Positions 5,841-64,000 of a DNA stretch of 64,000 nucleotides are shown piece after piece. A program made the position numbers and the translations under genes. The stretch lies in assembly GCA_947846985.1 (NCBI GenBank), contig CANTUZ010000024.1:1841046-1905045 (forward strand), in the 5' to 3' direction. Numbering within the stretch: position 1 is the first letter of the stretch; the number at the start of each line of letters is the position of its first letter. The DNA comes from Fratercula arctica (taxonomy: Eukaryota > Chordata > Aves > Charadriiformes > Alcidae). The notes under the pieces were generated by a model. It ran no database searches. It was given only the letters and a program-made list of their open reading frames with translations, and was not told the origin of the DNA.

Positions 5841-5845
5841 CGCAG

Positions 5846-5914: not shown

Positions 5915-5946
5915 AAAAAGGGGACCTAGCCGGCGGAGGGATACGG

Positions 5947-5954
5947 TGACGTCA
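5947..5954. promoter_or_regulatory. CRE palindrome TGACGTCA
   Basis: This is a perfect full-site cAMP-response element in the CpG island. A second one lies 55 bp away. CREB/ATF binding is inferred from the consensus alone. Confidence 0.65.
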
Positions 5955-6001
5955 TTTCCTTCTGGACCGCTGAGCGGCGGGGGGATTGGCGGGCGGCGCG
6001 G

Positions 6002-6009
6002 TGACGTCA
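6002..6009. promoter_or_regulatory. Second CRE palindrome TGACGTCA
   Basis: A second perfect CRE, extended to GTGACGTCAC at 6001-6010. Two consensus CREs in a CpG-island core are typical of CREB/ATF-bound promoters. Confidence 0.65.
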
Positions 6010-6549
6010 CCGGGAGGCGGGAGCCGCCGCTCCCCCCGCAGACTCTCCCGGAGCCTGAGCTGAGGCGCAGACGGTGCGGGGCGGGACGGCGCGGTCCCCC
6101 CTCCCCCGTCACACCCCCCCCGCCGTGGCGGGGCCGTGGGGCCCCGGGACCGGGGGGAGTCGGCAGGAGGGCTTCTCGCCGCCGCCAGGGGAGCCCGGGC
6201 CCCTTGCGGGGCCTATCGCGGCCTGCAGCGCCCGGCCGCCATCGCCTCAGGTGGGCGCTGAGGGGGCGCGCGCCCCTTCAGGGCCGGGGCCGCCTGGGAG
6301 GGCCTCGGCCCCCCGCGCCGTCGCCGGGCCCGGGGGCACTTGGTCTCGGCGAGGGGGGGCGCCGGCCGAACTCGCCCGCCCGTGGCAGGCCTCGGCCTCG
6401 GCTTCGGATTCACCCCCGGCTTCGGAATTTGCCGCCTCGTTTAGCGTCCATCGCGTCTCGGGGCCACCAGGCGCCATCGGTTGCTGCATGGCGAGGTTCA
6501 GTGTTACCCTTACAGGTGTAGGGATAATTAGGTTATGGGCGTTGTAATT

Positions 6550-19500: not shown

Positions 19501-22500
19501 TTGGTCAGCTGCCAGATTAAGGGGGATCTGGGACATAACAAGTAATATTAACATGTTTAACCATGGATTATTAACATAGCGACGTAAATATTATTGTTAA
19601 CATGTTGCTACAAGATGGTACACATCACGGTTTCGTGACAAAACCCTTATTTTGCATTCACAAATGAGCTTGGCATCGTATAACAGGGACAGGCTTGCAT
19701 CATCCGCCGATATCTTCAGGCGGTGAGATACAATGGCTCGGAATAAAAGAGTGTTTGAACGAGATCAGAGGGAAAGCAGAAAAAATGTGTATGGGAAGAA
19801 GGAAGAGAGAACGTTCATCATCCTGCTGTATGTTTTCTCTGGAAAACAATTTGGCACACATAATCTTTTTCTCAAAGTAATCTGCAGAAAACTGCATTTG
19901 CAATGCTAATTAAGCTGTGGTCTAATGCATACTGAGCTCTTGCTAATTTGGGTGATTGAGAAAATTGGAATAAAGTTTAAATTATGGCTTAGACATAAAT
20001 GGAACAAAGCAAACTTTATATTTTGTGTTCCCAGAGAAAAATATTTCACAAAGAATGTGAAATTAAACCTAAAGGACTAAATTACTCTTTTTGAGAAGAT
20101 CCAGTTTTTAAAGTTTAGGAGCCTCCGCAGGCAGCGAGCGGGCTGCTGCGAGCGTTTGGCCCTCAAAGAACGGCTCCGTGATGAAACGGGCGCTGGAGCT
20201 GTCACTGCCTCTGCATTTGAAATCTTAGATCCGTGGCGTTCTGAAATAAACTGTTGCTATAAACTTCTCTCTTTAAATATCAGAGAAGGGCAAATAATTA
20301 GCTGATTTCCTTGCAGATAGTTGAGGTACGGAGGGAGGCAACTATACTATGTTTTTGCTTCTGGCAACGTGTATTTCACCTCATGTCATATTGAAAAAAT
20401 ATGCCGGCATCCTGCTGCACGCACAGCACTTGTATATTTTTGTGTTTTAAACAGCTGCTTGCATACTAGTTCCATTTAGGAATGGAGTAGAAGCGTCCTG
20501 CGTTGTGCAGCTCCTGCAGCTCTGTGACTCTAGAAAAGTTGAGATGTATTTGTGTCAGTTAAGCCTATAAACTTGCGACATGTTGTAACTGCCCCCTTAA
20601 AGCAATATTTCAGGGTAATATTGTCTTAATTCTAGCTAACAATGTATTGGTGCAATCCTGAGCACGTGTGTTCTGGTGACTGTGTTAGAGTAGAAGTTGT
20701 TGAGTGTGTTCGAACATAATTTTGAGGGCTTGTGCGTGGAGACACCCAGATGCGTTGGTTGGGTTTGACCCTCGGTGCTTCTCCGTCTTCTGCCACCATG
20801 ACATGACGTGCTCCTCCTGATGCAGAGCCCAGCCTTGGACCAGAGGTGGTCCCTCTGCTTGTGTGGGCTTCTCTTCTCCAGGGGACGCTCAGATTCCCTT
20901 TCTAGCTTTCGAAAACTACGGTTTCCCCGCTAAGTTGTCCGATTGATGATGCAGTTGCAGAGCCGGGAGCGGTGAATAAGAATTGCCGGTTCAAGGAGGG
21001 TTTGTGGTGGCTGGAAGAGTGGCGTGAGAGCAGAGGTGGGGAGCTGAGTCTTTAATAGAGAGAAGGTGGAATGGCTCGTAATTCCCCTTCCTCTTGTCCT
21101 TTCCAGTCACCTGCAGTATCACCTCTTACCCAGGCTGTAAATCCTTAAAAATAACCACTTCTTTCAGCATTTATACACAGAGAAAGACTGGAGGTTTTCC
21201 AGTAATAATAAAATGGGTTGTTCACATTGGGCAATCTGTCTGCTTACTCATCTGGCAGTGATTCAGCAGCTCTCTCTAAAACATTTAACACAATTTTCTT
21301 AAATCCCAGACCCTTGTCATATATGAATGTGCTTTAAAATTGTGCGGCTGAACTCCTTGAAATGAAGGCCCAAATTTCCCATTATTTTTGAGCATGAAGT
21401 GTCACATTCTGTATATTTTCAGAAACTCAAGTAACCTCAGCATTGACTGGAGTCAGTCAGACTTACGGGTGTTTGGCAGTGTAAAAATTGGATCTAAGAT
21501 TTGTCAATCTCTGAATGCAAAGCCAATGTCCTCATAGAGATAGGCTTTGAAATAATTTAGAGATTAAAACAGCTTCTTTTTTTTCTCCAATTAGCGAAAT
21601 GCGGAGCGTGTGGTCCAGGATATGCAACTCCTCTGGATGCCATGAAAGGCAAGTATTGTAACATCTTTTCTTAAATCCAGGCCATCAGTAAAGGAATTGT
21701 TTTCCAATTAGGTGAATACTAGGGATAGATGCCTTCCAGAATGGTTCATTAATTAGCGACACCAAGGAGACTTTAAATATCAGAAGAGATCTTAGTTCAT
21801 TTTGCACCCAACTCTGGGCAAAGCATGCAAGCTCTTGTTACCACGAGTCGCTGCACTGTGGTACTAAACTGAAGTGGGTCTGGGTTTAGATGTCTGCGTG
21901 GCTGAGGATGTTAACGCTCAGCAAGCTTCTGCTTTTCTATGCTGCAAAATAGAGCTTTGCTTTAAATTAACCTAAAGATATGTTTCATTGGTGGTTTTGG
22001 ATGGCGAGCTCTATAGGCTGCCCTCAGACTCACAAACCCAAGTGATTGTCTAAGCCAGAAGAAGGGGGAAATACGGCAATAGGCTGTGGGATATTCTGGG
22101 TGACATAGTTTAACGCAAGCTTCTCATCCACTCCTGGCTGTACAAAAGTCACGTTCTGTTCTTCCCAGCCATGTCTGGCTGAATCCTGAACCTCACTAAA
22201 GCCCTTGAGGCATTTTGCTGTAGCTTTTAATAGTGGCAGAATTTCGCCTTGAGTCCTTTGATACACTTTAAAAGCCTCGATTTTATAGATTGTAATAAGT
22301 ATGCTTTTGGCATAGGTGGACTGAGATCTGGGCCCTGGCAGCAGGGAGCCATCGCTTGTGGAGCTGGGGAGAGGAGAGGCTTGGCGTGGCCTTGCAGATG
22401 GGAAGGTGGTCTCCAGCACCGACCTTTTTCAGGGAAATAATTCCATCCCCAGAGTCTCGTACATTAGGAGGGCGAGGGAGTGGAAAGGGCCCACGGCTGA

Positions 22501-25500
22501 GTAAGGATTTTCTCCTGGTGATTTCCGGCTGCTCCAACTGTACACTACTAGTTTTTCTCCATAAAATGGAAATACTGAGGTCCAGCTTCCTAGGAGGAAT
22601 CGCAATTTACAGATTGGAGAGATTCAATCCGGAGAAGATTCTCTTAAAGTTAACCACAGCTTTTTGTAAAAATGGTTTCTTTCGATGCATTAAACAAGAC
22701 TTGTGCCTTGCAAGGTCCCCGGGAGGAGATTGTGTACCTGCCTTGTATCTACAGGAACACTGGGATAGAGAAGCCCGACTACCTGGCCACTGTGGATGTC
22801 GACCCCAAATCTCCGCACTATTGTCAGGTACCATTTTCTAGGCTGGTGTGCATTTGTGTGCACGTTCTCCATTTCTAGTCTTACTTCTCACCTGGTTCGT
22901 GACCCTTCCAGTTGTGAACTTTGGATCTCATGCAGCCTTTCCTTCCCTGCTCTGGCTTTGGCTTCATCTTTCTTTTTCTTTTCTCATAATCATTTTCAAG
23001 TAGGTATTTGTGTTGAGAACCAATCAAATCCCCTGCTGTTTTTCTTACTAGGTTACTCAAAGCTAACATTTATCCTGTTAGTCTCAAGACACTTTCAGAG
23101 TGTTTCTGTGCTTAGGATTTTGATTGTTCTTTTTGTAACACTGTCGCTGATTTATACTTAGCATGAGTATTAAGCTCTAGAAGCTGATACTTCCTCAGTA
23201 GTATAGACAGAGTTTATAATGTAGGATGTCTGATACCCCAGGAAATTCTACACATGAGGCATTATAAATCTAATCCATTTACTTTATAAATGGAAAGCTG
23301 TAGGTAGTTAGCTACGAATATACCACATCCAAACTATCAGCAAGGCTGTCCTTAGCTCAGTTTGTTACTGCAAGTGGTGTACACTAAACTGCATTTAAAT
23401 ACGACTCAAATTGCTGAAGATGCTTTGGACTGGAGCAGTGAATCTGGTTGCACATCAAAGATTTTCATAATTTGTTCTTTTTTTTTAAAATAGCCACTGC
23501 TTAGGGTTTTATTGCAGAGGAGTGGAGGAAACAAATCTGCTAAAACTTTGACAAACTTAGCTCTAATCTTTCAACTTCTCCTAGTTACACAGAGGAAAAG
23601 TAATCAGGAGCAAGAGTGCAAATTAACATGTCAGTTTGCTACAGTCAGCCCCAGCTGTAATCAGGTAAATGGTGTAAAGTCAGAGACTTGCAGCACATGG
23701 ACAAGTCATTTTTTTTTTCTGTTGTTCTTTCCCATGTCATTATTCCATGTCTCCTTAATTGGGCAGAGTCTTTTGAAGATTTGGATTAATTTAGTAGCAT
23801 CCAACATTTAACAAATGCTGTGCAATCATGATGTCCAACTTTCTTCTCCCACTTTACAGCTTCAGCTCTGCAGATCTCAGGCTGAATCTGCTTCCTGAAT
23901 AACAAATAGCAGTTTCCTTCTGCTCTTTATTAATTTATGCTTTGACATAAAGACCCATTTCTTTGCCTAGGGGAAAAACTATAGTAGACTGAATCTTAAG
24001 TTTGTCTCTGGCTTTGTAGGTGATCCATCGCCTGCCCATGCCGAATCTTAAGGACGAGCTCCATCACTCAGGGTGGAACGCCTGTAGCAGCTGCTTTGGG
24101 GATGCCACAAAGAAAAGGAATCGTCTGATTCTACCAAGTCTGATCTCTTCTCGCATTTATGTGGTGGATGTGGGAACGGACTTGCGAGCTCCTAGAATCC
24201 ATAAGGTATATTTAGATGACTTTAAGCTTTTATTTCTTATGTTTTGATCGAGAGAGAGTGATTTTATGGATTCCAACTTCAAATTAGAATAGGAGAGTCG
24301 GAACAGTTATGGAAGCTTTTGTCAAGTATTAGGAACTTGTGGGAGTTTTGAAACTCATACAATTTATTGATAAACTGCACACAAAAATCTTGCACTAAAA
24401 TACGAGTAAATGTATTACTCCCTCTTAGGGGTGGGACTGGTATTCTGTAGTGATCTCAGAGAAGGTGACTATGACTATGTGTGTACTCATTTTAGGTTGT
24501 TGAGCCAGTGGAGTCGTTCTGGAAGTGTAACGTGGCTAATCCTCACACCTCTCACTGTCTGGGCAGTGGTGACATCTTAATCAGCTGTTTGGGAGACCCT
24601 TCTGGCAATGGAAAAGGTATTCGTCCCCTTCATTACTTTAGAAAAGTATTTGTGGCGCAGTACAGACTGCAAGCTAGAGGAATTAAGAGCTTACAGTTCT
24701 TTTGTGCACGTAACCATTCCAGCGGTTCTTTAAGTAACTATAGAATGAATATCTCAGTTGGCACGTAAGCTGTACGGACATAGCTCTGCCACAGCAATTC
24801 AGACCTGATGTGGAGGAACCTCTATGGGACTGTTGACAATTTCAGCTTCCATGCCTCAGTCTTTCACATATATTGCTAAAGAAGACCAGCTCTAGTGGTT
24901 ATAATATGAGCAAGAAACCCATTAACATTTCACTTGCCCCCCTTTAGCATGGAGCAAGGAAGAATTGCTTTTGAACATGATCTGTATCAGCTCAGTATTT
25001 GTGACTTGGGCATGAAAGATTCTGTTGCCAACCTAAATCCTCTTTGTCTTATTGTCTAATGAAAATAAAGCCTTTCAAGCTATTCTAGATTGCATTTTCT
25101 ATTTAAAAATTCGAAGGATTCTTGCATAGAAATTTTGTTACCTATGCAGACGTAAAACGTCTGACATCTAAAGAGAAATACTAGCTATTAGGAGAAATAC
25201 ACTTCAGATGGTAAGTGGTGAACCCTACTCCTTTTCACAGGGTTTTTCTCTTCTGGATTGTGGGCAAACATGTCCTTGACATATTATGTACGCAATTCAA
25301 GGATACTGGTGGCAAGCAAAGAAAATCAGAGGTGACTCCTCCAGGATCTTCTCTAAGATATCTCTTAATTGAAACGTACTCTACAAGGGCTAACTGATTT
25401 ATTGGAATGACTTGAGTGGAAATAGAGCAAACCAAAGCTTAAAAAATTCATTACAGGGTGATAAACTTTAAAAATCCAGCTTTCATTTGCTTTAGTCTAC

Positions 25501-28500
25501 AAAAACGATACTAACAGAATCAGAAAATTTTCCTTGAGCATAGGTTGCATTTTACAGAGCGTTTAGAAAATAGACATTTAAAGATGAGTATACTGTTTAT
25601 CTTATTTAAAGCTGTGAATCTGTGTGAACGTCCTCAAACATTGTTTTCTGGTTTTATGTCAGGTGGCTTTATTTTGCTGGATGGAGAGACCTTTGAAGTG
25701 AAAGGGAACTGGGAGAACGGGGAGAAGGTGCCTCCCCTGGGCTATGACTTCTGGTATCAGCCACGACACAATGTCCTGATGAGCACTGAATGGGGAACCC
25801 CAAAAGTCTTGGCAGATGGGTTTAACCCAGCTGATGTAGCAAGAGGTGGGGGAGCATTTGTTTAAACTCTCAGAATTTAAAGTGATTCTTTGTTACAATA
25901 ATACCTTCTCTGCTTATTTTTTGTCTGTCCCAATCCATCAGGGCATTACGGCCGCCGCATTAACGTGTGGGACTGGAGCACTCACACCTACATTCAGGCG
26001 GTTGACTTAGGGCAGGGCTCCATACCTTTGGAAATCCGATTCCTCCACAATCCGGATGCTGCAGAAGGGTTCGTTGGATGTGCTCTGAGCAGTGCCGTGC
26101 ACCGGTTCTACAAGACAGAGGTGAGTAACGAAAGCTGTGACAAATACAGAAGCTCAAACCGAGTTGTTTCAGAAATACACCGATCACTTAGGAAATAGTA
26201 GAATTCAGCTTAAAAAAAAAATACAGCTTCTCATTCCAGTCTAATTCTAGCCAAGCTATGACTTTGTGTCAGAGGGCAAACCTTCCAATGGCAGTGTGCA
26301 CACACGCCAGCGCTGTGGCTTTCTGAAGCTGCCATGCAGTCCCTCATCTTAGAGCAACTGCAGCTGGTGGGCATTTTGAGTATCTCTGCAGCCGGATTGC
26401 TGATGTCCAGCGTGCAAATTTCCAGCAGCCTGATCCTGAAAGGAAGGGAAGCTTAAGAGGTCCTGGTGCTGGTCTGTTAGCCCCACTTCCAATGCTCCTG
26501 CCCTCCACAAGAACTTGTTGATCAATTTAATCACAGTTAACAAATTGTGAAAGTCTCCAAGAGGGGAAGGTCTTGCCAATGATAGGAACACTAGTGATCG
26601 CTTGAACACGAGACAATCTAATGAGCACTGACACTGAGGAAAGGGCTGCTGCACTGGCTCCACCGCCTGCTCTCTGGCCTGCATGCTGGTCACCAAACGT
26701 CTGTCAATTGGGCAGCTAATCAGAACATGTGAAACTTGTCACCCGTGTCAATGTGTGCTGCCTGCTGCTCAGCCGGTATTGGGAAGCACAGGGAAGACCT
26801 GAAGGTAGAAGAGGGAGGGAAGGGGCTGGGGGTCACGGACAGGGGAATGGAGCTATTGCTATTTTAGAGGGCAAGCTGGAGACAGAGAGGACACCAAGCT
26901 GTAGGAGATTAGCAGTCTTTAGTTCTGTTACTGTTACAGCAATCTGTTTGAGATGTTATTGCATAGTGTAATCATTAACATTCCCACTGGCAGTATAGTT
27001 ACCATCCTCACCCCTTGGTAACGCTTATTTGCAGTGTGCGTATCACCTCTGTACAAGACCTGTTAAACAAACAGCACTATTTGCTTCTCCTCCCCTCTGT
27101 CGTGCATAGCTGATCCCTCTTAACTAACATCAAGGCAATAATAATGCTGTGTTCCTTCCTGTGCCTTCGGCAGAAAGGAGACTGGGCCGCAGAGAAGGTG
27201 ATTGAAGTACCCAGCAAGAAGGTGCAAGGATGGGTTCTCCCTGACATGCCTGGTTAGTGTGAGCACGGTTGGAAAAGAAATGGGGCGTTGTCCTCTTCGG
27301 TTCCTTGGTGCGGTGTAGCTTTTTGCAAAATCTTATCCTCAAATGACAACCACTTCCCTTGTAAAATACTACGTTTCTGTTTGGGTTCTTCGTGTAACGC
27401 TTCCGATGTAACCAGATTAGCCTTGCTTATGAGCCAGAGTTGTCAGACCACTGCTCCCACGCTGCTCAATGCTTGAGGTCAGTTTTTCTAGAAAAATACT
27501 TGGAGTTTGGATCTTTGAGGATGAGCTCACAGTGTTCAGGAATGGTCCTGGGAATGCTGGGAAAGCCCGAATCTCCTTTGAGTAGGCACTGGTTTTCCAA
27601 GGATGAGTGATTGTCCAACCCATATTTAACATATTCTTCTGAGGCTACTGTGACTAGAATTTTGAAAGATAATAGGTTTGCGGTCTTATTTGTTGCTGGT
27701 CCTGTCCGTTTCCTGACTTTGCTACTGAATATTTTCTTGAAGGTCTTATTACTGATATCCTCATCTCACTGGATGACCGGTTCCTGTACTTCAGCAACTG
27801 GCTGCACGGAGACATCCGCCAGTACGATATCTCCAACACCCGCCAGCCCAAGCTGGTGGGGCAGGTGAGGCAGCATCAGAAAAGCTGCCACATATAAGGG
27901 CAGCACAGTCATCTTATTTCCTTTTTTTTTTAAAAAGAGACAAAGACAACTTACTTTTGCTTGAGAATTGTCACTATATTGCCTTCATGTTCCTTTGGTA
28001 GCCAACGCCTGCTCTCACACATCCCCTTGGTTACAGGTGTTTCTGGGAGGCAGCATCACTAAAGGTGGGCCTGTAACTGTAGTGGAAGACAAGGAATTGC
28101 AGTGTCAGCCAGAGCCATTTGTGATCAAAGTAAGTTTTGCTAACACGCGCATCGTCAGTGCTTTGCTAATTGTAATCCAGTTTGAAATGTCCCTACACCT
28201 CAGTCAAAGGTACCACGCATAAAGCAGTATCTGAGCTAGTTTGTGCCTTGGCTTGCAGCCTGTGCAGGTATCACGTTTCAGCACGGATGGAGGTGAGTAG
28301 GTGAGTCTTCTGGGTCCCTGGTGGAATTGGACAAGCTGTTCAACTGTACTGAAGCCTGTGTAATGACATCTTCCCTGCTGCTGTTAGCTTGCTAATCTAA
28401 AGCTAACGCGGTGTGCATCCATCACACTGACATCATTGCTTCTGATAATTTTTCACCAACTGGTGGCTGAAGCGCTAAACCAGCCCGTGTGGTGTTCTGC

Positions 28501-30054
28501 GGTGCTCCTTGTGTGTGTGTGTAAAGAGTTTGATGGCACCTGGCATCATGATAAAAAAATCAGAGAGCATTAATTGTCTCTGGTCGCTATCAATGTGCAT
28601 TAGTATTATTACTGTCAAGGCAGGTACCTATAGAAAGTCTCACGGGATGTGCAAGAACTGAACATGGTCATGGCTGAGATCTGTTGGTCACTGCATGCGG
28701 TTTTGGGAAGTTCACATCCTCCTTTTCTTCATGGTACAGCCTGGGACCTAGCTGCAACACAGACATCTTCTTATTTTCACCTGGGTTATGCCACCCACGT
28801 CTTGCTTGATTTTTTACGTTTCTGTCTAAGTAGAGCAACCTGAATCCTTCATCCCTTACTTTCTTACTTTACTAGTTCTGTGAGTTAAATGGAACTCATC
28901 GAGATTGGCTCCAAGGCTCCCTGCTAATAAGGAGTAAGACTCCCAATAAAAACTCTTCTCTCTCCAAAACAGGGGATTTGGTGCTCTTGTGTCAAGGATC
29001 TGAGAGTGCTGGATGGTCCTCCGAGTAGCAGAACTGCCGCGCTGTTTTGTTTCTCCTTGCTGTTGCATTTCTTCTGTTCAACCTCCGTGGCAGCTTGTCT
29101 TGAGCACCTCGTTCTCTATTGTAATTTTAGGGGAAGAGGGTGCCAGGTGGACCTCAGATGATTCAGCTTAGCTTGGATGGGAAGAGACTGTATGTCTCCA
29201 GCTCTCTCTACAGTGGATGGGACAAGCAGTTCTACCCGGATCTTGTCAAGTAAGAAAACTTTGGTAAACAAGGATGACTGTACAAGCTCATGTTCAAGAT
29301 TTCTGTCTTAAATAGTGCTATGCATATGCTGGCTGGTCCACAGAGCAAAGTTCCCGTACAGGGAGACTGAATCCTGTAACTTTTTATGCACAGCCTACCG
29401 GCCTAGATGTTTCACCCGCCGGCCAGAGTGCATCCCTCTCAACAGGCACGCAGCAGTTGGGGTCTGCACACACTATTTGTTGAAATCGTGGTCTTTTGGG
29501 AAGTAGATGAGAATGGGAAGAAACCAGTGAACATGACCTAGCCTCCTGGAATCCATAGTACTTCCAAACTGCCTTTGAGGGTATCAGCAGGAATTTCTGG
29601 TTTTTGGAATGAAAGAAAGAAGATGATCTTCCAGATGGCCACAGGAGGGCATAGTGCAGCTTGCCTATTCCTTTCTAAGTAACAACAGCTATTAATTTTC
29701 ACCCGTTCATTGCCAATTTGAGGTTGCAGGTTTCACTGAGGTGATGTAACTCACTTTTGAGACCTGCTAAGCCCCAATTTAAATCTGGGGTTCTTTCCAT
29801 TTTATGAAGACAAATCCTGCCCAAATATGGAAGAGAAGAGCGACAAATATGAATCCTTTTCCCAATATCTGTTTTCTTGTCCCTTTTTCAGGGAAGGCTC
29901 TGTTATGCTGCAGATTGATGTGGATACTGAAAGAGGTGGATTGAAAGTGAATAAAAACTTCCTAGTGGATTTTGGGAAGGAACCTGATGGGCCTGTCCTA
30001 GCTCATGAGATTCGTTACCCTGGTGGAGACTGTACCTCTGATATCTGGATGTAA
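16563..30054 (+). CDS. SELENBP1: SELENBP1, methanethiol oxidase / selenium-binding protein 1 (copy 1)
   Basis: Intact 12-exon gene, 1416 nt coding, 471 aa (human protein 472). Coding exons: 16563-16566, 21595-21648, 22715-22827, 24020-24205, 24496-24616, 25663-25845, 25942-26120, 27174-27252, 27743-27864, 28037-28129, 29131-29249, 29892-30054. Exon 1 holds only ATGG, as in mammals. The family is cytosolic and oxidises methanethiol to H2S, H2O2 and formaldehyde. Family landmarks are all present: N-terminal [11 protein letters not shown], the YCQ cysteine (C56, equivalent to human Cys57, the reported selenium site), [17 protein letters not shown] (H60, H72, H73), CSSC (79-82), WYQPRHN (H195), FLHNPDA (H256), NWLHGD (H328), LAHE (H456) and the C-terminal DCTSDIWM. 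It has 12 cysteines. Intron 2 uses a GC donor (AAAG|GCAAGT); all others are GT-AG. Intron 1 is ~5 kb and AT-rich. No defect is seen. Confidence 0.97.
17169..17177 (+). promoter_or_regulatory. AP-1 / antioxidant-response-like motif in SELENBP1 intron 1
   Basis: TGACTCAGC fits both the AP-1 core and the TGACnnnGC antioxidant-response core, about 600 bp into intron 1. A single nine-base match can occur by chance, so regulation by NRF2 or AP-1 is only a suggestion. Confidence 0.25.
29405..29732 (+). repeat. Intron 11 segment with a second copy at 32626-32958
   Basis: This ~330-bp part of SELENBP1 intron 11 matches, in the same orientation, sequence ~3.2 kb downstream, beyond the gene's poly(A) signal. 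Shared blocks include GAAGAAACCAGTGAAC, GTACTTCCAAACTGCCT and CCACAGGAGGGCATAGTGCA. It is either a remnant of a tandem duplication or an old dispersed repeat. Confidence 0.8.
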
Positions 30055-37451: not shown

Positions 37452-40400
37452 ATGGGTAAGAGCCGCTCTGCAGCCTCCCCGCAGCAGCTCCAAGCCTTGT
37501 AGCCCCGTCCTGGCTCTGGCTCCAGCCACCGCCTGGAGGCTGCAGACATCCTGCCTTGAAAGCGAGTCCCGCTTGGGCACTGGTGGGTTTGTTCCTCTGC
37601 CGCGCTGCAGGGAGGAGAGATTTGGGGCTGAACTTTGGCGTTTGGTCCCACTGGTACCAGAGGTTTCTTTTGTCTCACTACTGATCTGCTTCCAGGGGAT
37701 CTTTTTGCCTTGAGAAGCTGCTTCCATGTGGCTGTAGCATCCGTGCTGAGGGGAGCCTTCCCTTCTGCTGGAGAATCATCAGACCAGACATTCAGTACTG
37801 ACGTGTTCTCGGTGGAAGCTCTCTTCACTGCTGATGGGGAGGGGATCAGTGAGGGACTCAGAGGATGCAGAAGGGAACTGAGCAGTGGTTTGATTGGTGA
37901 TTTTCGCGGTGGCACTTTAGGGAGGATTCTTCTCCTGGGTCCATCATTTGTCAGTGCCATAACAACAGCAGATGCTGGTCACAGAGGTCCCCATTGATAG
38001 TTGGGGTGGAAGAATGTCCATCAGGTGGGACAGGGTCTTCTGAAATGGCACCTTCTAAGGATGTGGACCTTTCTCATTTTATTCTTCTCTTCTTCTCAAA
38101 ACAGAGAGATGCAGAGGTCAGTGCTACGACTACCCCACCTGCCCGGATGTTGTGAAAGGCAAGTCCTCTTGAGCCTGTTTTGAATGTGTCAGTAATGGAA
38201 CCAGGGTCGGGCAGTTGTCAGTGAGCAAGGAGGAAGGTTTCAGCATCCAGAAAAATGAGTTCAGTCCAATTTGAGAGTCTGTTGAAGCTTTACTTTTCCT
38301 TTCTGGCTCGTTCACAGCACATTTTAACTGAGGCTTTCTCTATACCCAGCTCCTAGAGAGGAGATCGCCTACGTGACCTGTACCTACAGGGAAACATGCA
38401 TCGACCAACCTGACTTCCTGGCCACCATCGATCTCAACCCCAGATCTCCATGTTATTGCCAGGTACCTGTGTCTTGGCTTTTGATTGGGCTGGTGACTGG
38501 CTGCTGGCTCTGTGCTTCATAGTGCCCCCAGATTCAGGAAATTTACTCTTTTTGTCTGGGGAAAATCAGATTGCTTGATTCCCACTCTGTCACGCAGGCT
38601 GTTTATGCCTTGCACCTTCTTGTCTTCCTGCATCTTTTCTGTCTCCATCCTGGCTTGGCTCTTACCCGCTGCCTGTTCGTGTTCTGGCTGGGAAACCTCC
38701 TGTGAGTTTTGTCATGGCAGGTCTGCCTCTTGTTTCTCCACTGGTGTCATGCATGCGATATGGATGTTGTCTGCCTGGAATCTCACCTTCCTGCTCTCTT
38801 TTCACTCTAGTTGAATCTTATGCATTGCTGTGTCCTGGGGACAGGTCGGTTCTGACTCACTTCCCAACTCACTTCCCGAGCATCTTGGTGCTGCTAGTGA
38901 GCTTTTGAGCACATGCTCCGAATCACCTTCTCAGTATCTGCTCAGCGTGGAAAATGGTCTCTAGGGACGCAGGAGGTGTAGGGGATCTAGCACTTGTGCA
39001 GCGTTCAGCACGGTTCTGTTGTGCTGCAATGGCAGAGATGTTCTGTCGTGCACTGTACAGCCTGCCTGCTGTGATGGGACATCGGCATTTAGCTGTCTGC
39101 AGGCTGCAAAGGCAGGTTATCTACATCAAGGGTGTATATATGACCTGAATAGTCCATTGCTACAAGAGCTTAAACGAAAATGCACTTTAAAGCCAATATA
39201 GGCTTCTGAAAGTTTTTAGCAGATTTTGAAGTCCAGTCTAGGAGGAGTTTGCAGAGCAACGCACCTGTTTCATCAACATGATAATCATAATTTCTTCGTA
39301 TACGTGATTTTCTGAATTTTAGTGTCATGGGGTGAGGAATTCTTGAAAGAATTTCCACATTTCCCAGCTGCACACAGTACCCTATCAAAGAGCAGTGCCC
39401 AGTGCAAGGAGCAGAGTCTCCAGAGACAGTCCCAGCTACAGTCGAAAGGAGGCCACCAAGACAGGAGTATCTGCCAGCATTAGGGTCCCCATTTCTCCCT
39501 GCGCGACCCCTAACTCTCCCTTGACTGCCTAGGTGATCCACCGCCTGCCCATGCCCAACCTCAAAGACGAGCTGCATTCCTCGGGGTGGAGCGCTGGCTG
39601 CACCTGCTTTGACAATGTCACAACGAAAAGGAACAAGCTGATTCTTCCCTGTTTGATTTCTTCCCGCATTTACGTGGTGGATGTGGGGTCACAGTGCCGG
39701 GCTCCCAAGCTGTGCAAGGTATGGCTGAGGTGATTCCAGGTCAAGTTTCTGGGAAGGAGTTGGGAACTGGTGCTTCTGGAATAATACACAGGGAAGAAGG
39801 GTTCTCTCTTCATCTTCTCTTCCACCCTGAGTTTAGAGAGCTGGGTCACGTTTCCCTCTCGGCTCTCCCCTTTTGGGACCAGCGGCGGCTCTGATCATCA
39901 TTGTGTTCCTTTCTGTGTACCTGTTGCATTCGGGAAGTCAGGCAACGCCCCACGCCTTCCCCCCACCCAAATGGTGCGGTGGACAGACAAGCCCTTATGA
40001 GTTCGGTGTTGCTGCATTCTTGTCTGTGCAGAGGGGATCTGAGAGGCTTCTGTGCTCCTCTCCGAGGAGGGTCAGGCCCTGGCCGGTGTGCGTTCTTGGA
40101 AAGAAAGCTCCTGCAAGTGTCACAGATGTTCCGCAGTCTCAGGTGGCCACAGGCTCTGCCAGGGAGTATGAAATGCGCTGAGCAGCCGGCGGCTGAAGTG
40201 TGTGTGTGTGTGTCAACCTTTTTCAGATGATTGAGCCAGTGGATGTCTTCTGGAAGTGCAACAAGGGATACCTCAACGTACCTCGCAGCCTGCCCAATGG
40301 CGATATTCTGATTGCCAACATGGGAGACCCAGCTGGCAATGCGAAAGGTACTTTGCCCCGTAATAACTCCGTAAAGAAACTGACCGGTTTGGAAGTGGAG

Positions 40401-42745
40401 AATGTGATTTGTCATGCATCCCCTTTTGTCTCACAGGTGGCTTTATTGTGCTGGATGGAGAGACCTTTGAGCTGAAGGGGAACTGGGAAAACGAGTGTGA
40501 GGCCCCCCCAAGTGGATGCGACTTCTGGTACCAGCCGCGCCACAATGTTCTGATCAGCTCTGCCGGAGTAGTCCCAAAACGTGCAGGACGTGGATTTTGT
40601 CCCAGTGACTTGAAGAAAGGTGAGGGAATACAGATGCGGGTGCTGAGCCAGAACTCGCTGAGGTGATGGGAGGGTGTCGAGAGGGCAGAGAGAGGGGACA
40701 GGCAGATTTCTGCCCAAACAGCCCATTTTGCAGGCACTGCTACACGACATGCAGCGTCTGTCCTTAAGACCGCCTGGTCCCTGTGTTCTCCTGCAGCTCC
40801 CTAAATCACTGCAGTTTCTCGGCTACTTCTGGCCAGTCTGATAGCCATGGCTATGGCGTCTGTGAGCATTTTGGGGAGGGGTTAGTGTCCACAGGTAGCC
40901 CCCCACCACTTGTCCTGACTCGGTTTTCCTTTTCCTCAGGGGTCTATGGGCGCCGCCTGAACGTGTGGAACTTGTCCTGCCGCTCCCTCATCCAGTGCTT
41001 TGACCTGGGGGAGGACTCTCTGCCCCTGAGTGTGAAATTCCTCCACAATCCCGATGCTGCCGAGGGATACGTCAGCTGTGCCCTGAGCGGCATCGTCTAC
41101 CGCTTCTACAAGTGCGAGGCGAGTATTCTGTCAGGAGCCGGGGGAGACCCAGACCTTTCCTGAGCAGGCAGGGGAGTGCTCATGGCGCGGTGCCTGTGTT
41201 TCTTGTGCAGAGAGACAACTGGGCAGTAGAAGAGGTCATTCGGATACCGGCCAAGGATGTGGCGGGATGGATTATGCCCAAGATGCCAGGTTTGTGTACC
41301 CCGAGCTGGAGTTCCCTTTTTCCTCCCAAGTGCTGTGTTGTGCAGCCCAGCCAAGCCCCCTGGCTGCCCCTCCAAGCCTCGCTGCATAAACACGAGGGAG
41401 GGCTTGTTGGGGGGGCCTGGAGGGCTGTGCACACCCCAGGAAGACACTGCTGCCCTGGCTGGAGCCCGTGCACTGGGGCAGGTCTCCTGTGCCGGAGGCA
41501 TGCCATCGAGAATGGCAGGGAGAGATGCGGGCTGGGGCTCGATGCGAGGCAAGTTTCCTGTTGATGCTGCCTTCTCTAGAGCTCTTGGTTTCTGTGCCCT
41601 AGCCTTCACCGTCGACCTCATCATCTCAGTGGACGACAGGTACCTGTATCTCAGCAACTGGCTGCACGGAGACATCCGCCAGTACGAGCTCTCCAAGACC
41701 TGCAAGCCCAGGCTGGTGGGACAGGTAAGGCAGGAGCAGAAGGGCTTGCGCTGTTGGGTTCCTCGGCAGGATGTGGTGGTGGTCGGCTGACAGGGCAACA
41801 TGTCTCCCACTGCCTCGCTTACAGGTGTTTGTGGGAGGCAGTATCCTCAGAGGCGGACCCGTGACTGTGTGCCGAGACGAAGAGCTGAAGTGCCAGCCGG
41901 ACCCCTTGGTGATCAAGGCAAGTTCTGCGGCCTCTTTGCCCTCCGGTGTCCTTTGCGCTTTGGCTCTGCTCAGGGTTTCTGGGGTCGGTCTCCCCTGCGG
42001 TGCCCGTGTCCCGCAGCATCTGGTGTCTTGGCCTGTGCTGGGGAGGAGGCAGCCGCTCTGCTCTGCTCCCCTGCCCCTGCTTGTGCTTGGCTGCTGAAAG
42101 AAAGAAGGCGGTAACGTGACTGCTGTCCCTTGTGCCTTCAGTGCAAGAGAGTGTACGGCGGCCCCAGCAAACTGCAGCTCAGCCTGGATGGCAAGAGGCT
42201 GTACGTCACCAACTCCTTCTACAGCACGTGGGACAAGCAGTTCTACCCCAACATGGTCAGGTGAGGAACGTTTGGGAGGAAAGGGGATGTTTTGATTGAG
42301 CAGAGATGTTTTGCTTTAGCAAAGCAGACAATGACCTCCAACCCAAAGGCAAGCTCCGGCCAGCCTGGCACGCCGTGCCTGGTGGTTTGCTCACACCCAT
42401 TGAGAATTCAGGAAAAAAATGTGAGCGCTGGTGTGTGCCACTAGTGGAACCTGGCCCCCGCTCCCTTCTCCCTGTGGAAGCCAAGCTGTTAAGGAGAAAG
42501 GAGCAGGAGGTGAAGGGCAGGATCTCTTGAAGAGGACCACGGTTTGCTTGTCTGTAATGGCTGCGCTCTTGTCCCCTCGCAGGGAAGGCTCTGTCATGCT
42601 GCAGATTGATGTGGACACTGAGAAGGGAGGCCTGACCGTGAACAAGAACTTCCTGGTGGATTTTGGAAAGGAACCCAACGGGCCTTGCCTTGCCCATGAG
42701 ATCCACTTTGCTTCTGGGGATTCCACCTCCGATATCTTGGCCTAG
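37452..42745 (+). CDS. SELENBP1-like: Cysteine-rich SELENBP1 paralogue (copy 2)
   Basis: Intact 12-exon gene, 1416 nt coding, 471 aa. Exons: 37452-37455, 38105-38158, 38350-38462, 39533-39718, 40227-40347, 40437-40619, 40940-41118, 41211-41289, 41603-41724, 41825-41917, 42142-42260, 42583-42745. Every exon length equals that of copy 1, so the two arose by tandem duplication with frame preserved. The last exon matches at 42 of 53 residues, while the first 20 residues match at only six. Kept: YCQ (C56), [33 protein letters not shown] and LAHE. Changed: H73 to Ser, CxxC 79-82 to CxC (80, 82), the C-terminal SDIW to SDIL. It has 25 cysteines versus 12. Donors of introns 2, 7 and 10 are GC instead of GT. 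The paralogue may be a methanethiol oxidase with altered redox chemistry or a new role; it is not a pseudogene by sequence. Confidence 0.93.
40196..40213 (+). repeat. Short (GT)n next to the exon 5 acceptor of copy 2
   Basis: About nine GT units lie directly before the polypyrimidine tract of exon 5 (exon start 40227). Length variation here could affect acceptor use. Confidence 0.8.
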
Positions 42746-54214: not shown

Positions 54215-56830
54215 GGCCATTCGAAATTTTGGAGCTCCACCTGGGGATGGAGGAAGACCCACCGGAGAGTTTATGGGTCAAGATTAAAGGGAATGCAGGG
54301 GCGGGGGACATTACGGTAGGGGTCTGCTACAGGCCGCCTGACCAGGACGACGGAGCGCATGAGGCCCTCCATAGACAGATAGGAGCAGCATCGTGTTCAC
54401 AGACCTTGGTCATCATGGGGGACTTCAACCACCCCGGTATCTGTTGAAAGGACAACACAGCGGGGCACAAGAAACCCAGGAAGTTCTTGGAATGTGTCGA
54501 TGACAACTTTCTTCTTCAAATGGTAGAGGAGCCCACAAGGAGAGGAACAATGCTGGACCTTGTCCCTACCAACAAGGAGGGCCTGGTGGGGAGTGTCAAG
54601 CTCCAGGGTAGCCTCAGCTGCAGTGATCATGAAATGGTTGAATTCAAGACCCTTTGGGCAGCAAGGAGAGCACGCAGCAAGCTCACTACCCTGGACTTTG
54701 GCCTCTTGAGGGACCTGCTTGGCAGGGTAACATGGGAAAAAGTACTGGAGGAAAGAGGGGCCCAAGAGAGCTGGTTAGTATTCAAGGATCACCTCCTCCA
54801 GGCTCAGGAGCGGTGCATCCCAAGAAAGAAGAAGTCAGGCAAAAATGCCAGGAGGCCTGTGTGGATCAACAAAGAGCTCCTGGACAAGCTCAAGAGCAAA
54901 AAGGAAGCCTCCAGAGGGTGGAAGCAAGGACGGGTTGACTGGATGGAATACAGAGAAACTGTCCGAGTGACCAGGAACCAAATTCTAAAGCCCAGATAGA
55001 ATTAAATCTGGCTGGGGGCATCAAGGATAACAAGGAAAACTTCTATAAGTGCATCAGGGGTAAAGGCAAGATCAGGGAAGATGTGGGCCCTCTCCGGAAG
55101 GAAACAGGAGACCTGGTGACCCAGGACATGGAGAAGGCTTGTGATGAAATGATAAATGACTTTTTCGCCTCGATCTTCACCAGCGAGGGCTCCAAGCACA
55201 CCACCCAAGCTGCAGGATGCAAAGGCAGGGTCTATGAGAATGAAGAACTGCCCACTGTAGGAGAAGATCAGATTCGGGACCACCTGAGGAACCTGAAGGT
55301 GTGTAAGTCCACAGGACCGGATTAAATCCATCCATGGGTCCTGAGGGAGCTGGCAGACGAAGTCGCCAAGCCGCTTTCCATTATATTTGAAAAGTCGTGG
55401 CAGTCTGGTGAAGTTCCCGCTGACTGGAAAAGGGGAAACATAACCCCCATTTTCAAAAAGGCAAAAAAGGACGACCCGGGGAACTACAGACCAGTCAGCC
55501 TCACCTCTGTGCCTGGCAAGATCATGGAGCAGATCCTCCTGGAAACACTGCTAAGGCACATGGAAAATAAGGAGGAGATTGGTGCCAGCCAACATGGCTT
55601 CACCAAAGGCAAGTCGTGCCTGACAAATTTGGTGGCCTTCTACGATATTGCCACAGCGCTGGCAGATAAGGGGAGAGCAACCGACGTCATCTACCTGGAC
55701 TTAGGCAAAGCGTTTGACACTGTCCCGCACGACATCCTGGGCTCTAAATTGGAAAAGCATGGATTGTATGGATGGACCACTCAGTGGATAAGGAACTGGC
55801 TGGATGGCCGCACTCAAAGGGTTGTGGTCAAGGCCCAATGTCCATGCAGAAACCAATGATGAGTGGCGTTCCTCAGGGGTCAGTACTGGGACCGGTGCTG
55901 TTTAACATCTTTGTCAGTGACATGGACAGTGGGATTGAGCACACCCTCAGCAAGTTTGCCGACGACACCAAGCTGTGTGGCGCAGTCGACACACCGGAGG
56001 GAAGGGATGCCATCCAGAGGGAGCTGGACAGGCTGGAGAGGTGGGCCCCTGTGAACCTCCTGAAGTTCAACCAGGCCAAGTGCAAGATCCTGCACCTGGG
56101 TCACGGCAATCCCAGGCACAAATACAGGCTGGGCGGAGAATGGCTGGAGAGCAGCCCTGAGGAGAAGGACTTGGGGGTGCTGAGGGGGGTGAGAAGCTCG
56201 ACATGAGCAGGCAATGCGCGCTGGCAGCCCAGAAAGCCAACCATATCAAAAGAAGTATGGCCAGCAGGGCGAGGGAGGTGATTCTAGCCCTCAACTCCAC
56301 TCTGGTGAGACCCCACCTGGAGCACTGCGTCCAGCTCTGGAGTCCTCAGCACAGGAGAGACACGGAGCTGTTGGAGCGGGGCCGGAGGAGGCCCCGGAGC
56401 TGCTGGGAGGGCTGGAGCCCCTCTGCTGTGGGGACAGGCTGAGAGAGCTGGGGGGGGTCAGCCTGGAGAAGAGAAGGCTCCGGGGAGACCTTCCAGCCCC
56501 TGCCAGTCCCTAAAGGGGCTCCGGGAAAGCTGGGGAGGGACTCTGGAGCAGGGAGGGGAGCCATGGGACAAGGCGTAGCGGTTTTAAACTGGGAGAGGGG
56601 AGATTTAGATGAGATCTGGGGAAGAAATTCTTGGCTGTGAGGGGGGTGAGCCCCTGGCCCAGGCTGCCCAGAGAAGCTGTGGCTGCCCCATCCCTGGAGG
56701 GGTTCAAGGCCAGGTTGGACGAGGCTTTGGGCAACCTGGGCTGGTGGGAGGTGCCCCTGCCCAGGGCAGGGGGTGGCACTGGACGAACTTTAAGGTCTCT
56801 TCTCACCTGAACCCTGTCACCCCCCCCATC
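54215..56830 (+). mobile_element. CR1 LINE, broken ORF2 (endonuclease C-terminus, reverse transcriptase, 3' region)
   Basis: Starts inside the endonuclease (VIMGDFNHPGI near 54410) and runs through the reverse transcriptase: [68 protein letters not shown] and FADDTKL at about 55510-55975, then the C-terminal [13 protein letters not shown] at ~56313. In-frame stops at 54445, 54997 and 55323 and frame changes between about 55000 and 55083, near 55850 and near 56200 make it non-functional. ORF1 and the 5' end are missing. The 3' end is degenerate, with no clear octamer repeat. Confidence 0.95.
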
Positions 56831-58480: not shown

Positions 58481-58489
58481 GCTGTGAGG

Positions 58490-60150
58490 AAGGACTGGGG
58501 ATGCTGGGATGGACTGGGAGGGCTGCGCACACTGGAGTGGGCTGGGAGGGCTGGACACTGGGGTGGGCTGGGGGTGGTGGGCTGGACTGGGGGTGCTGGG
58601 CTGGACTGGAGGCACTCAGCTGAACTGGGAGTCCTGGGCTGGACTGGGGGGGCTGCTCTGGGATCACTGGGAGGGACTGGTGGGGACCGAGCTGGGCTGG
58701 GGACACAGAGCTGGAGCTGGGCTGGAGTGGGGGTGCTGGGGTGGACTGGGGGGGCTGAGCTGGGGGTACTGGGCTGAACTGTGTGTACTGAGCTAATTTG
58801 GGAGCACTGGGATGGGAACACTGGGCTGAGCTGGGGGTACTGGGCTGAGCTGGGGTTGCTGCGCTGGACTGGAGGCACTGAGCTAAAAGGGGGGTCCTGT
58901 GCTGGACTGGGGGGGCTGCTGTGGGGTCACTGGGATGGACTGGGGGCACCAAGCTGGGCTGCGCTAGGGGCATTTGGCTCGACTGGGGGTGCTGGGCTGG
59001 GGGCATTAGGTCAGACTCGGGGTGCTGGGCTGAACTGGGAGTCCTGGGCTGGACTGGGGGTGCTGGAGTGGGAATGCTCAGGTGGGCTGGGCGTGCTGGG
59101 CTGGGGGCTCTAGGTCAGACGGGGTCGCTGGGCTGGACTGGGAGCACTGGGCTGGGGGCACTAGGTCAGACTGGGGGCGCTGGGGTGGGCTGGGAGCACT
59201 GGGCTGGGGGCACTGGGCTGGACTGGGAGTACTGGGCTGGGGGTGCTAAGTTGGACTGGGGGTGCTAGGTTGGACTGGGGGTGCTGGGCTGGACTGGGAG
59301 CACTGGGCTGGGGGCACTAGGTCAGACTGGGGGCACTGGGCTGGACTGGGAGTACTGGGCTGGGGGCACTAGGTCAGACTGGGAGCACTGTGGGAGGCTG
59401 GGAGCACTGGGCTGGGGGCGCTCGGGTGGGCTGGGAGCACTGGGCTGGGGGCACTAGGTCAGACTGGGGGCACTGGGCTGGACTGGGAGTACTGGGCTGG
59501 GGGCACTAGGTCAGACTGGGGGCACTGGGCTGGACTGGGAGTACTGGGCTGGGGGCACTAGGTCAGACTGGGGGCGCTGGGGTGGGCTGGGTGTGCTGGA
59601 CTGGGGGCACTGGGCTGGACTGGGAGTACTGGACTGGGGGTGCTAGGCTGGACTGGGGGTGCTGGGCTGGACTGGGAGCACTGGGCTGGGGGCACTAGGT
59701 CAGACTGGGGGCGCTGGGGTGGGCTGGGTGTGCTGGACTGGGGGCACTGGGCTGGACTGGGAGTACTGGGCTGGGGGTGCAGGTTGGACTGGGGGTGCTG
59801 GGCTGGACTGGGAGTACTGGGCTGGGGGTGATAGGTTGGACTGGGGGCGCTGGGCTGGGAGCACTAGTTCAGACTGGGAGCACTGGGCTGGACTGGGAGT
59901 GCTGGTCGGAGGGCACTGGGCTGGACTGGGAGCACTGGGCTGGACTGGGAGTGCTGGTCGGAGGGCACTGGGCTGGACTGGGAGCACTGGGCTGGACTGG
60001 GAGTGCTGGTTGGAGGGCACTGGGCTGGACTGGGAGCACTGGGCTGGACTGGGAGTGCTGGTCGGAGGGCACTGGGCTGGACTGGGAGCACTGGGCTGGA
60101 CTGGGAGTGCTGGTCGGAGGGCACTGGGCTGGACTGGGAGCGCTGAACAC
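58490..60150 (+). repeat. G-rich minisatellite (CTGGGCTGGACTGGGAGCA family)
   Basis: About 1.65 kb of short tandem units built from ACTGGGCTGGACTGGGAGCA and CTGGGGGCACTAGGTCAGA, with higher-order repeats; the block GTGCTGGTCGGAGGGCACTG recurs about every 60 bp at 59900-60120. The plus strand has runs of GGG throughout, so quadruplex formation is likely. All six frames are partly open, giving Trp/Gly-rich and Ser/Pro/Gln-rich pseudo-proteins that are not genes. Confidence 0.97.
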
Positions 60151-61399: not shown

Positions 61400-61915
61400 T
61401 TGGGATCCTGTCTCCGGTCCCCCTGGAATCCGATTACCCCAGGGTACAGTTCTTGATCCCTGGGATCCAGTCCCCATTCCCCCTGGGATCCAGTCCCCAG
61501 TCTCCCAGCATCCAGTCCCCACTCCCTCAGGATCCAGTCCCTCACTCCCCTGGGATCCAGTCCCTAATCCCCTGGGATCCAGTCCCCACTCCCCGCCGGG
61601 ATCCAGTCCCTCAATCCCCCAGGATCCATTCCCTAATCCCCTGGGATTCAGCCTCCCAATCCCCCAGGATCCAGTCCCCACTCCCCTGGGATCCAGTCCT
61701 CCAATCCCCCGGGATCCAGTCCCCAGTCTCCCAGCATCCAGTCCCTCAGTCCCCTGGGATCCAGTCCCTCACTCCCACAGGATCCAGTCCCTCAGTCCCC
61801 TGGGATCCAGTCCCTAATCCCCTGGGATCCAGCCTCCGAATCCCCTGAGATCCAGTCCCCACTCCCCCAGGATACAGTCCCCCAATCCCCCGGGATCCAG
61901 TCCCCAAGCCCCCCA
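61400..61915 (+). repeat. GGATCCAGTCCC minisatellite
   Basis: About 20 tandem units of 20-30 bp, consensus CCCTGGGATCCAGTCCCCACT, each with a GGATCC (BamHI) site. The array ends about 95 bp before the splice acceptor of the receptor exon. Confidence 0.95.
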
Positions 61916-62000: not shown

Positions 62001-62010
62001 CCCTCCGCAG
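62001..62010 (+). promoter_or_regulatory. 3' splice site of the receptor coding exon
   Basis: A pyrimidine-rich run ending CCCTCCGCAG, with exonic sequence from 62011. TLR genes commonly have non-coding 5' exons followed by one large coding exon, which fits an acceptor ~95 bp before the ATG. Confidence 0.6.
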
Positions 62011-62104: not shown

Positions 62105-64000
62105 ATGCGGCGCCCGGCCACCACCCGGCGGGTTTGGTGCCTGGTGCTGCTGGCGCTGGCGGGGGACGCGGCGTGGCCGCCGTGCCACATCGACACCGGC
62201 AACGGGACGGGGCTGTGCAAGGGGCAGGGCCTGGTGCAGGTGCCCAGCGGCCTCCCCAGCGGCCTGCGCAGCCTCGACCTCTCCTACAACAAGCTCCGGG
62301 AGATCACGGCGGGCGACTTTGCCGGCATGACCCAGCTACGGCGCTTGGATTTGGGCTACAACAACATCTCCCGCATCGCGCCAGACGCTTTCCTCTCCAA
62401 CCTCCTCTTGGAGCATCTCCGGCTCTTCAACAACTCCCTCCACCACATCCCGGCACCGGCGTTGCGACCCTTGGTCAACCTCCGTTGGTTGGACATGTCC
62501 AACAACCTCTACCGCAGCGCGGCGTTGGACGGCGCCTTCGGCAGGCTGCGGCAGCTGCGGGAGCTGTCGCTGGGGGGGCCGCTGCTACGGGACATCTCCT
62601 GGGGGGACTTTGCCATCTTGAAGGACACGGTGCTGCAGAAGTTTGCCATCAAATCGGCCTCCAGCCTGCACTGGTACGAAGCTGGGGCTTTCTCGTGGTT
62701 GAACACCACAGAGCTGTGGTGTGACATGGCCTTGGACGAGAACGCGATGGCTCTGCCGGTGATGCTGCAGGACCTGCGGGACAAACCCCTCGACTACCTG
62801 CGCTTCCGTAACCTCTTCGAGTTCACCTACTACACCGGCAATGCCGATCCCTTCATCGGCTTGGCCGAGTTGCGGATCACCAAGTTGGTCTTCTATCGGG
62901 GCAAGTTCAACGAGAACCTCCTCCGCTTTGCCCTGCTCAACGTCCAACGCTCCCGCGTCCGTGACTTGGCACTGGTGGCCATCGACTTTGCCCGCTCGCC
63001 GCGGTGGAACAGCTCTGGTGTGGGGGCGGCCGCCCCGCGGCTCGACCGCCTCTTGCTGCAGGACATCAGCAACCCCGACATCCTGCGTTTCGACTGGACC
63101 TTCACCTGGTTGAGCGGTGTGGCCACCCTCTCCATCATCAACGTCAACTTCAACTACGTCCCCTGTGATGTTTGGGGTGAGTTGCGTAACGTGGAGGCCT
63201 TGGACATCTCCAGCAACCGTCTGGAAGATGGTTATATCTACAACCAGCGTTGCCACTACCAGGGCGTCATGCCCAAGCTGGAGAGCTTCATCTTGGCCAC
63301 CAACCAGCTCCTGAGCCTGGCTGTGGTGGCCGCCTTGACGCGGACCTGGCCACGGCTCACCCACCTCGACGCCAGCCACAACGCGTTGGGCAGCCTGCAG
63401 GAGGTGTGCCAATGGAGTCACACCTTGCGTTGGCTGGCCCTCCACCACAACCATGTGACAGTGGGCACCTTCGGGTGCCTGCCCACCACCCTGGAGTATC
63501 TGGACCTCTCCTACTCCCAACTCGACCGCTTGGACATGGACTACTTCACCCGAAGCCCCCGGCTCCAGGAGCTGCGGTTGAGTGGCAACAAGATCAAGTT
63601 CATCCCCTCCGAGTGGAGATGTCCCCGTTTGGAGGTGCTGGCCATCGACGGCAACTCCTTTGGCGTCATCAACCGCGGCTCCTTCGTCAACATGCCACGG
63701 CTCATTAGCCTGGCGGCCGGCAACAACCCCTACTACTGCACCTGCGACCTCTACCTCTTCCTGGAGGAGACATGGCAACGGGGACGACCCACCTTGGCCG
63801 ACTGGCCCCACAACTGGACCTGCTACCACCCCGAGCCGCTGCTGGATACAGCCGTGGCCTCCTACACCCCGCGTCCCTTGGAATGCAACATGCCGGCTCT
63901 GGTGGCCGTGGCGGTGGCCAGCACGGCAGTGGTGGTGGCGGCGTGCGCCGTGCTCTGCTGGAAGCTGGATGCTGGTTGGTACCTCCGCGCCACGTACCGG
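62105..64000 (+). CDS. Toll-like receptor (TLR1/2-like ectodomain), 3' end outside window
   Basis: The frame is open for 632 codons to the window edge without a stop. Chosen start ATG 62105 (G at -3) is followed by a signal peptide (residues 1-23, core VWCLVLLALAG). Next come an N-terminal cysteine pair (C27, C38) and LRRs from ~50 (LRSLDLSYNKL, LRRLDLGYNNIS, LRWLDMSNNL, then irregular central repeats, then VEALDISSNRL, LTHLDASHNAL, LEYLDLSYSQL, LQELRLSGNKI). An LRRCT follows (YYCTCDLYLFL at ~544, further cysteines to C594), a transmembrane helix (~597-619), and CWKLDAGWYL just inside the membrane. An ectodomain of ~595 residues fits TLR1/2/6/10-type receptors and is short for TLR3/7/8/9. Several N-glycosylation sequons occur (NGT, NIS, NNS, NTT, NSS, NWT). 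The TIR domain should follow beyond 64000. It senses microbial ligands at the cell surface or endosome; the ligand is unknown. Orthology to a named TLR cannot be fixed from this sequence. Confidence 0.9.
   Translation, partial: MRRPATTRRVWCLVLLALAGDAAWPPCHIDTGNGTGLCKGQGLVQVPSGLPSGLRSLDLSYNKLREITAGDFAGMTQLRRLDLGYNNISRIAPDAFLSNLLLEHLRLFNNSLHHIPAPALRPLVNLRWLDMSNNLYRSAALDGAFGRLRQLRELSLGGPLLRDISWGDFAILKDTVLQKFAIKSASSLHWYEAGAFSWLNTTELWCDMALDENAMALPVMLQDLRDKPLDYLRFRNLFEFTYYTGNADPFIGLAELRITKLVFYRGKFNENLLRFALLNVQRSRVRDLALVAIDFARSPRWNSSGVGAAAPRLDRLLLQDISNPDILRFDWTFTWLSGVATLSIINVNFNYVPCDVWGELRNVEALDISSNRLEDGYIYNQRCHYQGVMPKLESFILATNQLLSLAVVAALTRTWPRLTHLDASHNALGSLQEVCQWSHTLRWLALHHNHVTVGTFGCLPTTLEYLDLSYSQLDRLDMDYFTRSPRLQELRLSGNKIKFIPSEWRCPRLEVLAIDGNSFGVINRGSFVNMPRLISLAAGNNPYYCTCDLYLFLEETWQRGRPTLADWPHNWTCYHPEPLLDTAVASYTPRPLECNMPALVAVAVASTAVVVAACAVLCWKLDAGWYLRATYR

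Follow-up and report, generated by a model that had tools for sequence, protein, structure and literature searches.

Which Toll-like receptor (TLR) lies beside SELENBP1 in the genome of the puffin Fratercula arctica, and does it belong to the accepted avian set? The window that we analysed comprises 64,000 nucleotides (C24:1841046-1905045), and its end holds an open frame that the original prediction, made from the letters alone, had taken for a member of the TLR1 superfamily, perhaps related to TLR14/18/25 and possibly overlooked in birds. We are highly confident that this gene represents TLR14/18 in birds, orthologous to the TLR1-family receptor that fish, amphibians and reptiles retain. Its receptor architecture, intact frame, phylogenetic place and presence across many bird lineages are direct observations.

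Gene structure and genomic neighbourhood

The frame starts at the ATG at 62105 on the forward strand and stays open for 632 codons to the window end. The assembly that the window comes from (28 contigs, 1.21 Gb) contains the gene in full: its coding sequence (L001:1576-4017) ends at C24:1905591 including the stop codon and encodes 813 amino acids with no internal stops, and window and locus L001 are identical base for base across their overlap. Thus, 62105..64000 (+) represents the 5′ 632 codons, with a start codon picked via alignment; several other bird models of TLR14/18 start further upstream. The layout is that of a type I receptor. On the forward strand, a predicted signal peptide with the start of the N-terminal cap (residues 1-26, 62105..62182, an approximate boundary set by eye and model) is followed by the LRR ectodomain (residues 27-540, 62183..63724, from Pfam, the mouse TLR2 alignment and the model), the LRRCT cap (residues 541-595, 63725..63889, with C545, C547, C573 and C594, by alignment), a predicted transmembrane helix (residues 596-619, 63890..63961; 596-621 in the model, at low confidence) and a juxtamembrane stretch (63962..64000). 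Signal peptide, LRRCT and transmembrane helix were assigned by eye, alignment and model, without a dedicated predictor. Within the 632 codons, Pfam matches LRR_8 (E 2.9e-41) and mouse TLR2 aligns across residues 34-598 (1.7e-59). The TIR domain, on whose presence downstream the original prediction had staked its case, begins at about 64055, 55 bases past the window end, and covers residues 651-777 (PF01582, E 9.3e-20). NCBIfam matched the protein to bacterial LRR and TIR models only, far under their cut-offs.

We discarded the open frame as sole evidence of coding, since the antisense strand of the same GC-rich stretch is likewise open, for 471 codons. Conservation together with a GC content by codon position of 0.58/0.45/0.88 establishes that the frame is coding. 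The original observation of signal peptide, LRRs, LRRCT and transmembrane helix is confirmed. A probable 3′ splice acceptor AG lies behind a pyrimidine tract at 62009..62010 (+), judged from the sequence only. As the same exon reads from this acceptor to the stop codon, the gene looks like one coding exon preceded by a non-coding exon. Minisatellites, another feature that had been predicted, are found just upstream, at 61437..61913 inside the presumed intron and as a cluster at 58488..60145.

The TLR14/18 gene has SELENBP1 on one side and an integrin alpha gene on the other; the size of its contig, C24 (3.69 Mb), fits the microchromosome that had been suspected. The expected SELENBP1 neighbour turned out to be two tandem copies upstream, located with a human query: exons of copy 1 are spread across 21594..30051 (+) and those of a more diverged, SELENBP1-like copy 2 across 38334..42736 (+), each copy with one exon matching PF05694. 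Measured against the human query, copy 2 is the more divergent of the pair in most exons. An integrin alpha I-domain exon of the alpha-1/alpha-2 type follows 12.6 kb beyond the window end (L010:2608-2970, by sequence match), and a RING-finger exon lies on the opposite strand 23 kb beyond it (Pfam). We take these exons to belong to ITGA10 and RNF115, which in human are 1q21 genes, as is SELENBP1. Pfam returned nothing on five distinct neighbour stretches, one of which is the RING exon in another frame and one, L010:2608-2970, the integrin exon recognised by sequence; tRNA and Rfam searches were empty. Six fish TLR18-type models among the matches listed (P0085, P0098, P0113, P0121, P0249 and P0251) carry an S100 domain, hinting at an S100 gene next to TLR18 in fish; S100 is another 1q21 family. 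S100 and PSMB4 were not found in the window plus 30 kb (94 kb; no positive control). Elsewhere in the window, 55017-56182 (+) contains reverse transcriptase pieces (RVT_1, E 4e-6, 27.1 bits, below the 29.6 cut-off), which we take to be probably a remnant of a CR1-type retrotransposon. Both strands of the GC-rich stretch 5060-6500 have several open frames, and this stretch is probably a CpG island where a gene begins.

Phylogenetic place among TLR genes

A search of 5.8 billion proteins (7987 candidates scored, 679 matches, best 120 listed) and a second one with a profile of 19 sequences (7988 candidates, 1238 matches, best 120 listed) gave the same picture. Among the matches listed, bird proteins mostly share 79-90% identity with the puffin protein, with ostrich at 74%, kiwi entries at 65-74% and one eagle model at 61%; turtles and alligator follow at 65-66%, squamates at 54-61%, caecilians at 55-57% and, below these, frogs and fish TLR18 at about 49-56%. 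The avian TLR2 comparison set was gathered with a chicken TLR2A query (7979 candidates, 1844 matches, 120 listed).

The other TLR genes of the puffin come from a survey of TIR genes in which 54 of 227 candidates were scored, so that the gene list is a lower bound. C4 holds two pairs, TLR2A/TLR2B at 34.57 Mb and a TLR1-like one near 65.9 Mb; a TLR15-like gene lies at 8.90 Mb on C3, and additional TIR genes were located on C16, C14 and C1. The names TLR1-like, TLR15, TLR4 (C16), TLR21 (C14) and TLR7 are our assumption. Apart from these, C6 carries at about 7.61-7.62 Mb (L012:1744 onward) two near-identical 496-codon frames some 8.8 kb apart, with LRRs, LRRCT and a transmembrane helix and without a TIR domain. 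This pair presumably resembles CD14 and is possibly a recent CD14 duplication.

Two full-length trees were built, one from 72 hand-picked sequences (71 of 241 proteins plus mouse TLR2) and one from 60 sequences including the other puffin TLRs and 7 of the 18 named bird sequences of the first. Eight near-duplicates were omitted before the domain trees were made. The TIR-only tree holds 48 sequences, without Columba, Anas, the mouse TLR2 ectodomain and the puffin C16 and C14 genes, in which no TIR motif was found; the ectodomain tree holds 44, eight of 52 having been dropped. The puffin TLR21-like gene (C14, L008) failed the TIR-motif filter and was excluded from the 60-sequence tree as well as from both domain trees, and the C16 gene is in the 60-sequence tree only. 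Both full-length trees recover one TLR14/18 clade separate from TLR2 and, in the 60-sequence tree, also from the puffin TLR1-like, TLR15-like and C16 genes. The TLR14/18 side splits off at 96/94 in the TIR-only tree, and in the ectodomain tree all 29 TLR14/18 sequences, the window included, fall on one side at 100/100. In both domain trees the puffin gene groups with fish TLR18/TLR14 and with tetrapod TLR14, where the tetrapod proteins bear other database names and owe their TLR14 identity to the clade. Grouping with a known avian TLR, which the original prediction had named as counter-evidence, was seen in none of the 60-sequence, TIR and ectodomain trees. TLR1-like and TLR15 identities are ruled out by separate branches in these three trees; the puffin TLR15-like and TLR1-like genes have long branches and an unsure placement, yet remain outside the 29-sequence clade. 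Some of the forks among fish and amphibians lack firm support, lungfish falls with amphibians in the TIR tree, where turtles and alligator have no firm place, and the composition of the GC-rich bird sequences departs from the model in the full-length and ectodomain trees.

Going by database names, one would take the gene for a TLR2, whether TLR2A, TLR2B or an additional copy: it bears the automatic name “toll-like receptor 2” in 21 of the 24 named bird species among the matches listed, and TLR2 is the best PDB match both by sequence and by fold, the seven best matches to the full-length AlphaFold model (mean pLDDT 79, weaker in the transmembrane and TIR parts) being TLR2 ectodomains with TM-scores by target of 0.81-0.83. 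However, an ectodomain tree constrained to unite the bird genes with avian and mouse TLR2 is 72 log units worse and is rejected (AU p = 1.3e-6), the TIR tree agrees, and the puffin has its TLR2A and TLR2B at the C4 locus, with only 31% identity to the bird TLR14/18 query P0002. Moreover, the two genes lie on different contigs in several species, among them Calonectris borealis (TLR2 on 86.0 Mb, TLR14/18 on 5.10 Mb), Strix uralensis (133.7 and 3.72 Mb), Struthio camelus (88.0 and 5.30 Mb) and Chlamydotis macqueenii (84.6 and 3.29 Mb). The contig with TLR14/18 is larger, 44.6 Mb, in Buteo buteo. We therefore give a TLR2 identity hardly any credence.

An assignment to the neighbouring TLR25 or TLR27 type is very improbable as well. 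Part of the literature unites TLR14/18/25/27 in one group (passage in PMC4877655), and our trees were built without TLR25 and TLR27, likewise without TLR3, TLR5, TLR7 and TLR21. Against it stands that none of the 120 + 120 matches listed (of 679 and 1238) is named TLR25 or TLR27, while coelacanth, bichir and many teleost entries are named TLR18 or TLR14. In addition, the full-length and ectodomain trees run through squamate, turtle, alligator, palaeognath, waterfowl and other birds, the species order expected of one inherited orthologue. The original placement in the TLR1 superfamily, near TLR14/18/25-type genes, is supported.

Occurrence and naming among birds

At least 24 named bird species carry TLR14/18, the same 24 being found among the matches listed in both searches. 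Among them, by common name, are ostrich, kiwi, swan, duck, pigeon, sandgrouse, cuckoos, bustard, rail, kagu, sandpiper, shearwater, cormorant, ibis, hawk, eagle, owls, falcons, seriema, frogmouth and owlet-nightjar. Sandpiper, eagle and kiwi entries are named TIR domain-containing protein. Misnaming is systematic among the database entries listed, with tetrapod TLR14/18 given as toll-like receptor 2 and many avian TLR2 as TLR22 protein. Apteryx owenii has three differing entries (P0031, P0040 and P0058), which are gene copies or fragmented models.

No galliform or passerine is named among the TLR14/18 matches listed, though both are well represented among the TLR2 matches listed; parrots are named among neither. 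Clusters at 90% identity conceal the names of their members, 120 matches were listed per search, about seven avian- or reptilian-looking ones without a species name, short models were filtered out, and older assemblies often miss GC-rich genes. Within these limits, the lists suggest loss of TLR14/18 in galliforms and passerines as a possibility. The GC-rich, minisatellite-dense DNA that had been proposed as the reason why the gene escaped notice is a plausible cause of missing detection; the gap would be accounted for just as well if chicken and songbirds truly lacked the gene.

These missing groups could also point to a decaying or unexpressed relic, as could the models of Falco, Nipponia and Podargus, which are labelled LOW QUALITY, and that of Columba livia (isoform X1, P0024), whose TIR region is in another reading frame. 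Such models mean that a working gene is possibly not kept in every lineage. Yet P0023, which groups with Columba, has an intact TIR domain; P0024 reflects either a model error or lineage-specific damage. The puffin gene itself combines 813 stop-free codons and a GC3 of 0.88 with a TIR domain recognised by Pfam and orthologues in the 24 named bird species. A relic is very improbable on this evidence.

Previous accounts of TLR14/18 differ. In the passages cited here, TLR14 was assigned to amphibians, teleosts and lampreys only (PMC2275738, 2008), the TLR14/18 group was stated to be missing in Aves (2016) or to have been lost by amniotes (2018), and its presence was inferred for the jawed-vertebrate ancestor (PMC8455134, 2021). 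TLR14 was reported in nearly all amphibians and reptiles (PMC6946030, 2019), where the bird part of the table, covering 37 bird genomes searched, gives ten TLRs and no TLR14, and the green turtle is listed with TLR18 (PMC9951749, 2023); a statement that TLR14 occurs in mammals (PMC3125219, 2011) stands alone. Among open-licence PMC papers, with subscription papers and preprints outside our scope, we found none that describes the bird gene in its title or the start of its abstract. However, a transcriptome table gives the name TLR18 to a goose blood-lymphocyte unigene, marked absent in all four comparison birds and not analysed further in the passages cited (PMC4376690, 2015), which also hints at expression. 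The suspicion that the gene had been overlooked in birds holds in the sense that TLR surveys do not include it and databases mostly call it TLR2; it had already been sequenced, and its family is known.

The bird gene contradicts the statement that the group is absent from Aves. We favour, by a small margin over even chances, a history in which palaeognaths, waterfowl and most Neoaves would have kept a reptile-derived TLR14/18 that works as a receptor in its own right and usually lies on a microchromosome, whereas galliforms and songbirds would have lost it, and in which it was declared absent because chicken, turkey and zebra finch served as reference birds. The accepted avian TLR set, which is used in disease, adjuvant and conservation-genetics studies, lacks TLR14/18, and the TLR2 labels could mislead TLR2 surveys and primers. 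A receptor that ostrich, duck, swan, raptors, owls and pigeon have and that chickens perhaps lack would be worth considering where poultry and wild birds differ in microbial sensing, and it raises the question why chickens and songbirds may lack it.

Proposed signalling and comparison with known receptors

The bird TLR14/18 is likely a MyD88-coupled membrane sensor of a microbial ligand, considering its TLR2-like model, the BB-loop proline and reports on lamprey TLR14d and fish TLR18. The receptor would sit in the membrane, its LRR horseshoe would dimerise once a microbial, probably bacterial, ligand binds, and its TIR domain would recruit MyD88, leading to NF-kB activation. The BB-loop proline, aligned with the TLR2 TIR domain 1fyw (H in 1fyx), is kept in the bird protein P0005, and P691/G692 are invariant across 44 sequences. 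According to PMC10151648, lamprey TLR14d interacts with MyD88 but not with TRIF, and increases NF-kB, IL-6 and TNF. In HEK cells the same source places it in the cytoplasm, so that location of the bird receptor at the cell surface is not assured, and it cites Nile tilapia TLR18 as recruiting MyD88 and also TRIF, so signalling through MyD88 alone is not assured either. Fish TLR18 is cited as responsive to bacteria (passages in PMC6946030 and PMC9951749).

Compared with known systems, the bird gene shares its domain order and its TIR and ectodomain clade with reptile and amphibian TLR14 and with TLR18 of fish and sea turtle. Its length is similar to that of the turtle proteins (834-835 amino acids) and of reptile TLR14 (835 in the table of PMC6946030, apparently codons). 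It differs from TLR14/TLR18 of other vertebrates in being GC-rich and mostly named TLR2 in databases. With avian TLR2A/TLR2B it has in common the TLR1 family, an LRR ectodomain of TLR2 fold and the same BB-loop proline, but it forms its own clade at its own locus with about 31% identity. Lamprey TLR14d, described as an orthologue of jawed-vertebrate TLR14 in PMC6043800 and PMC10151648, resembles the bird gene by description in its MyD88-dependent NF-kB activation and is longer, with 1094 amino acids according to the abstract of PMC10151648 compared to 813 in the puffin.
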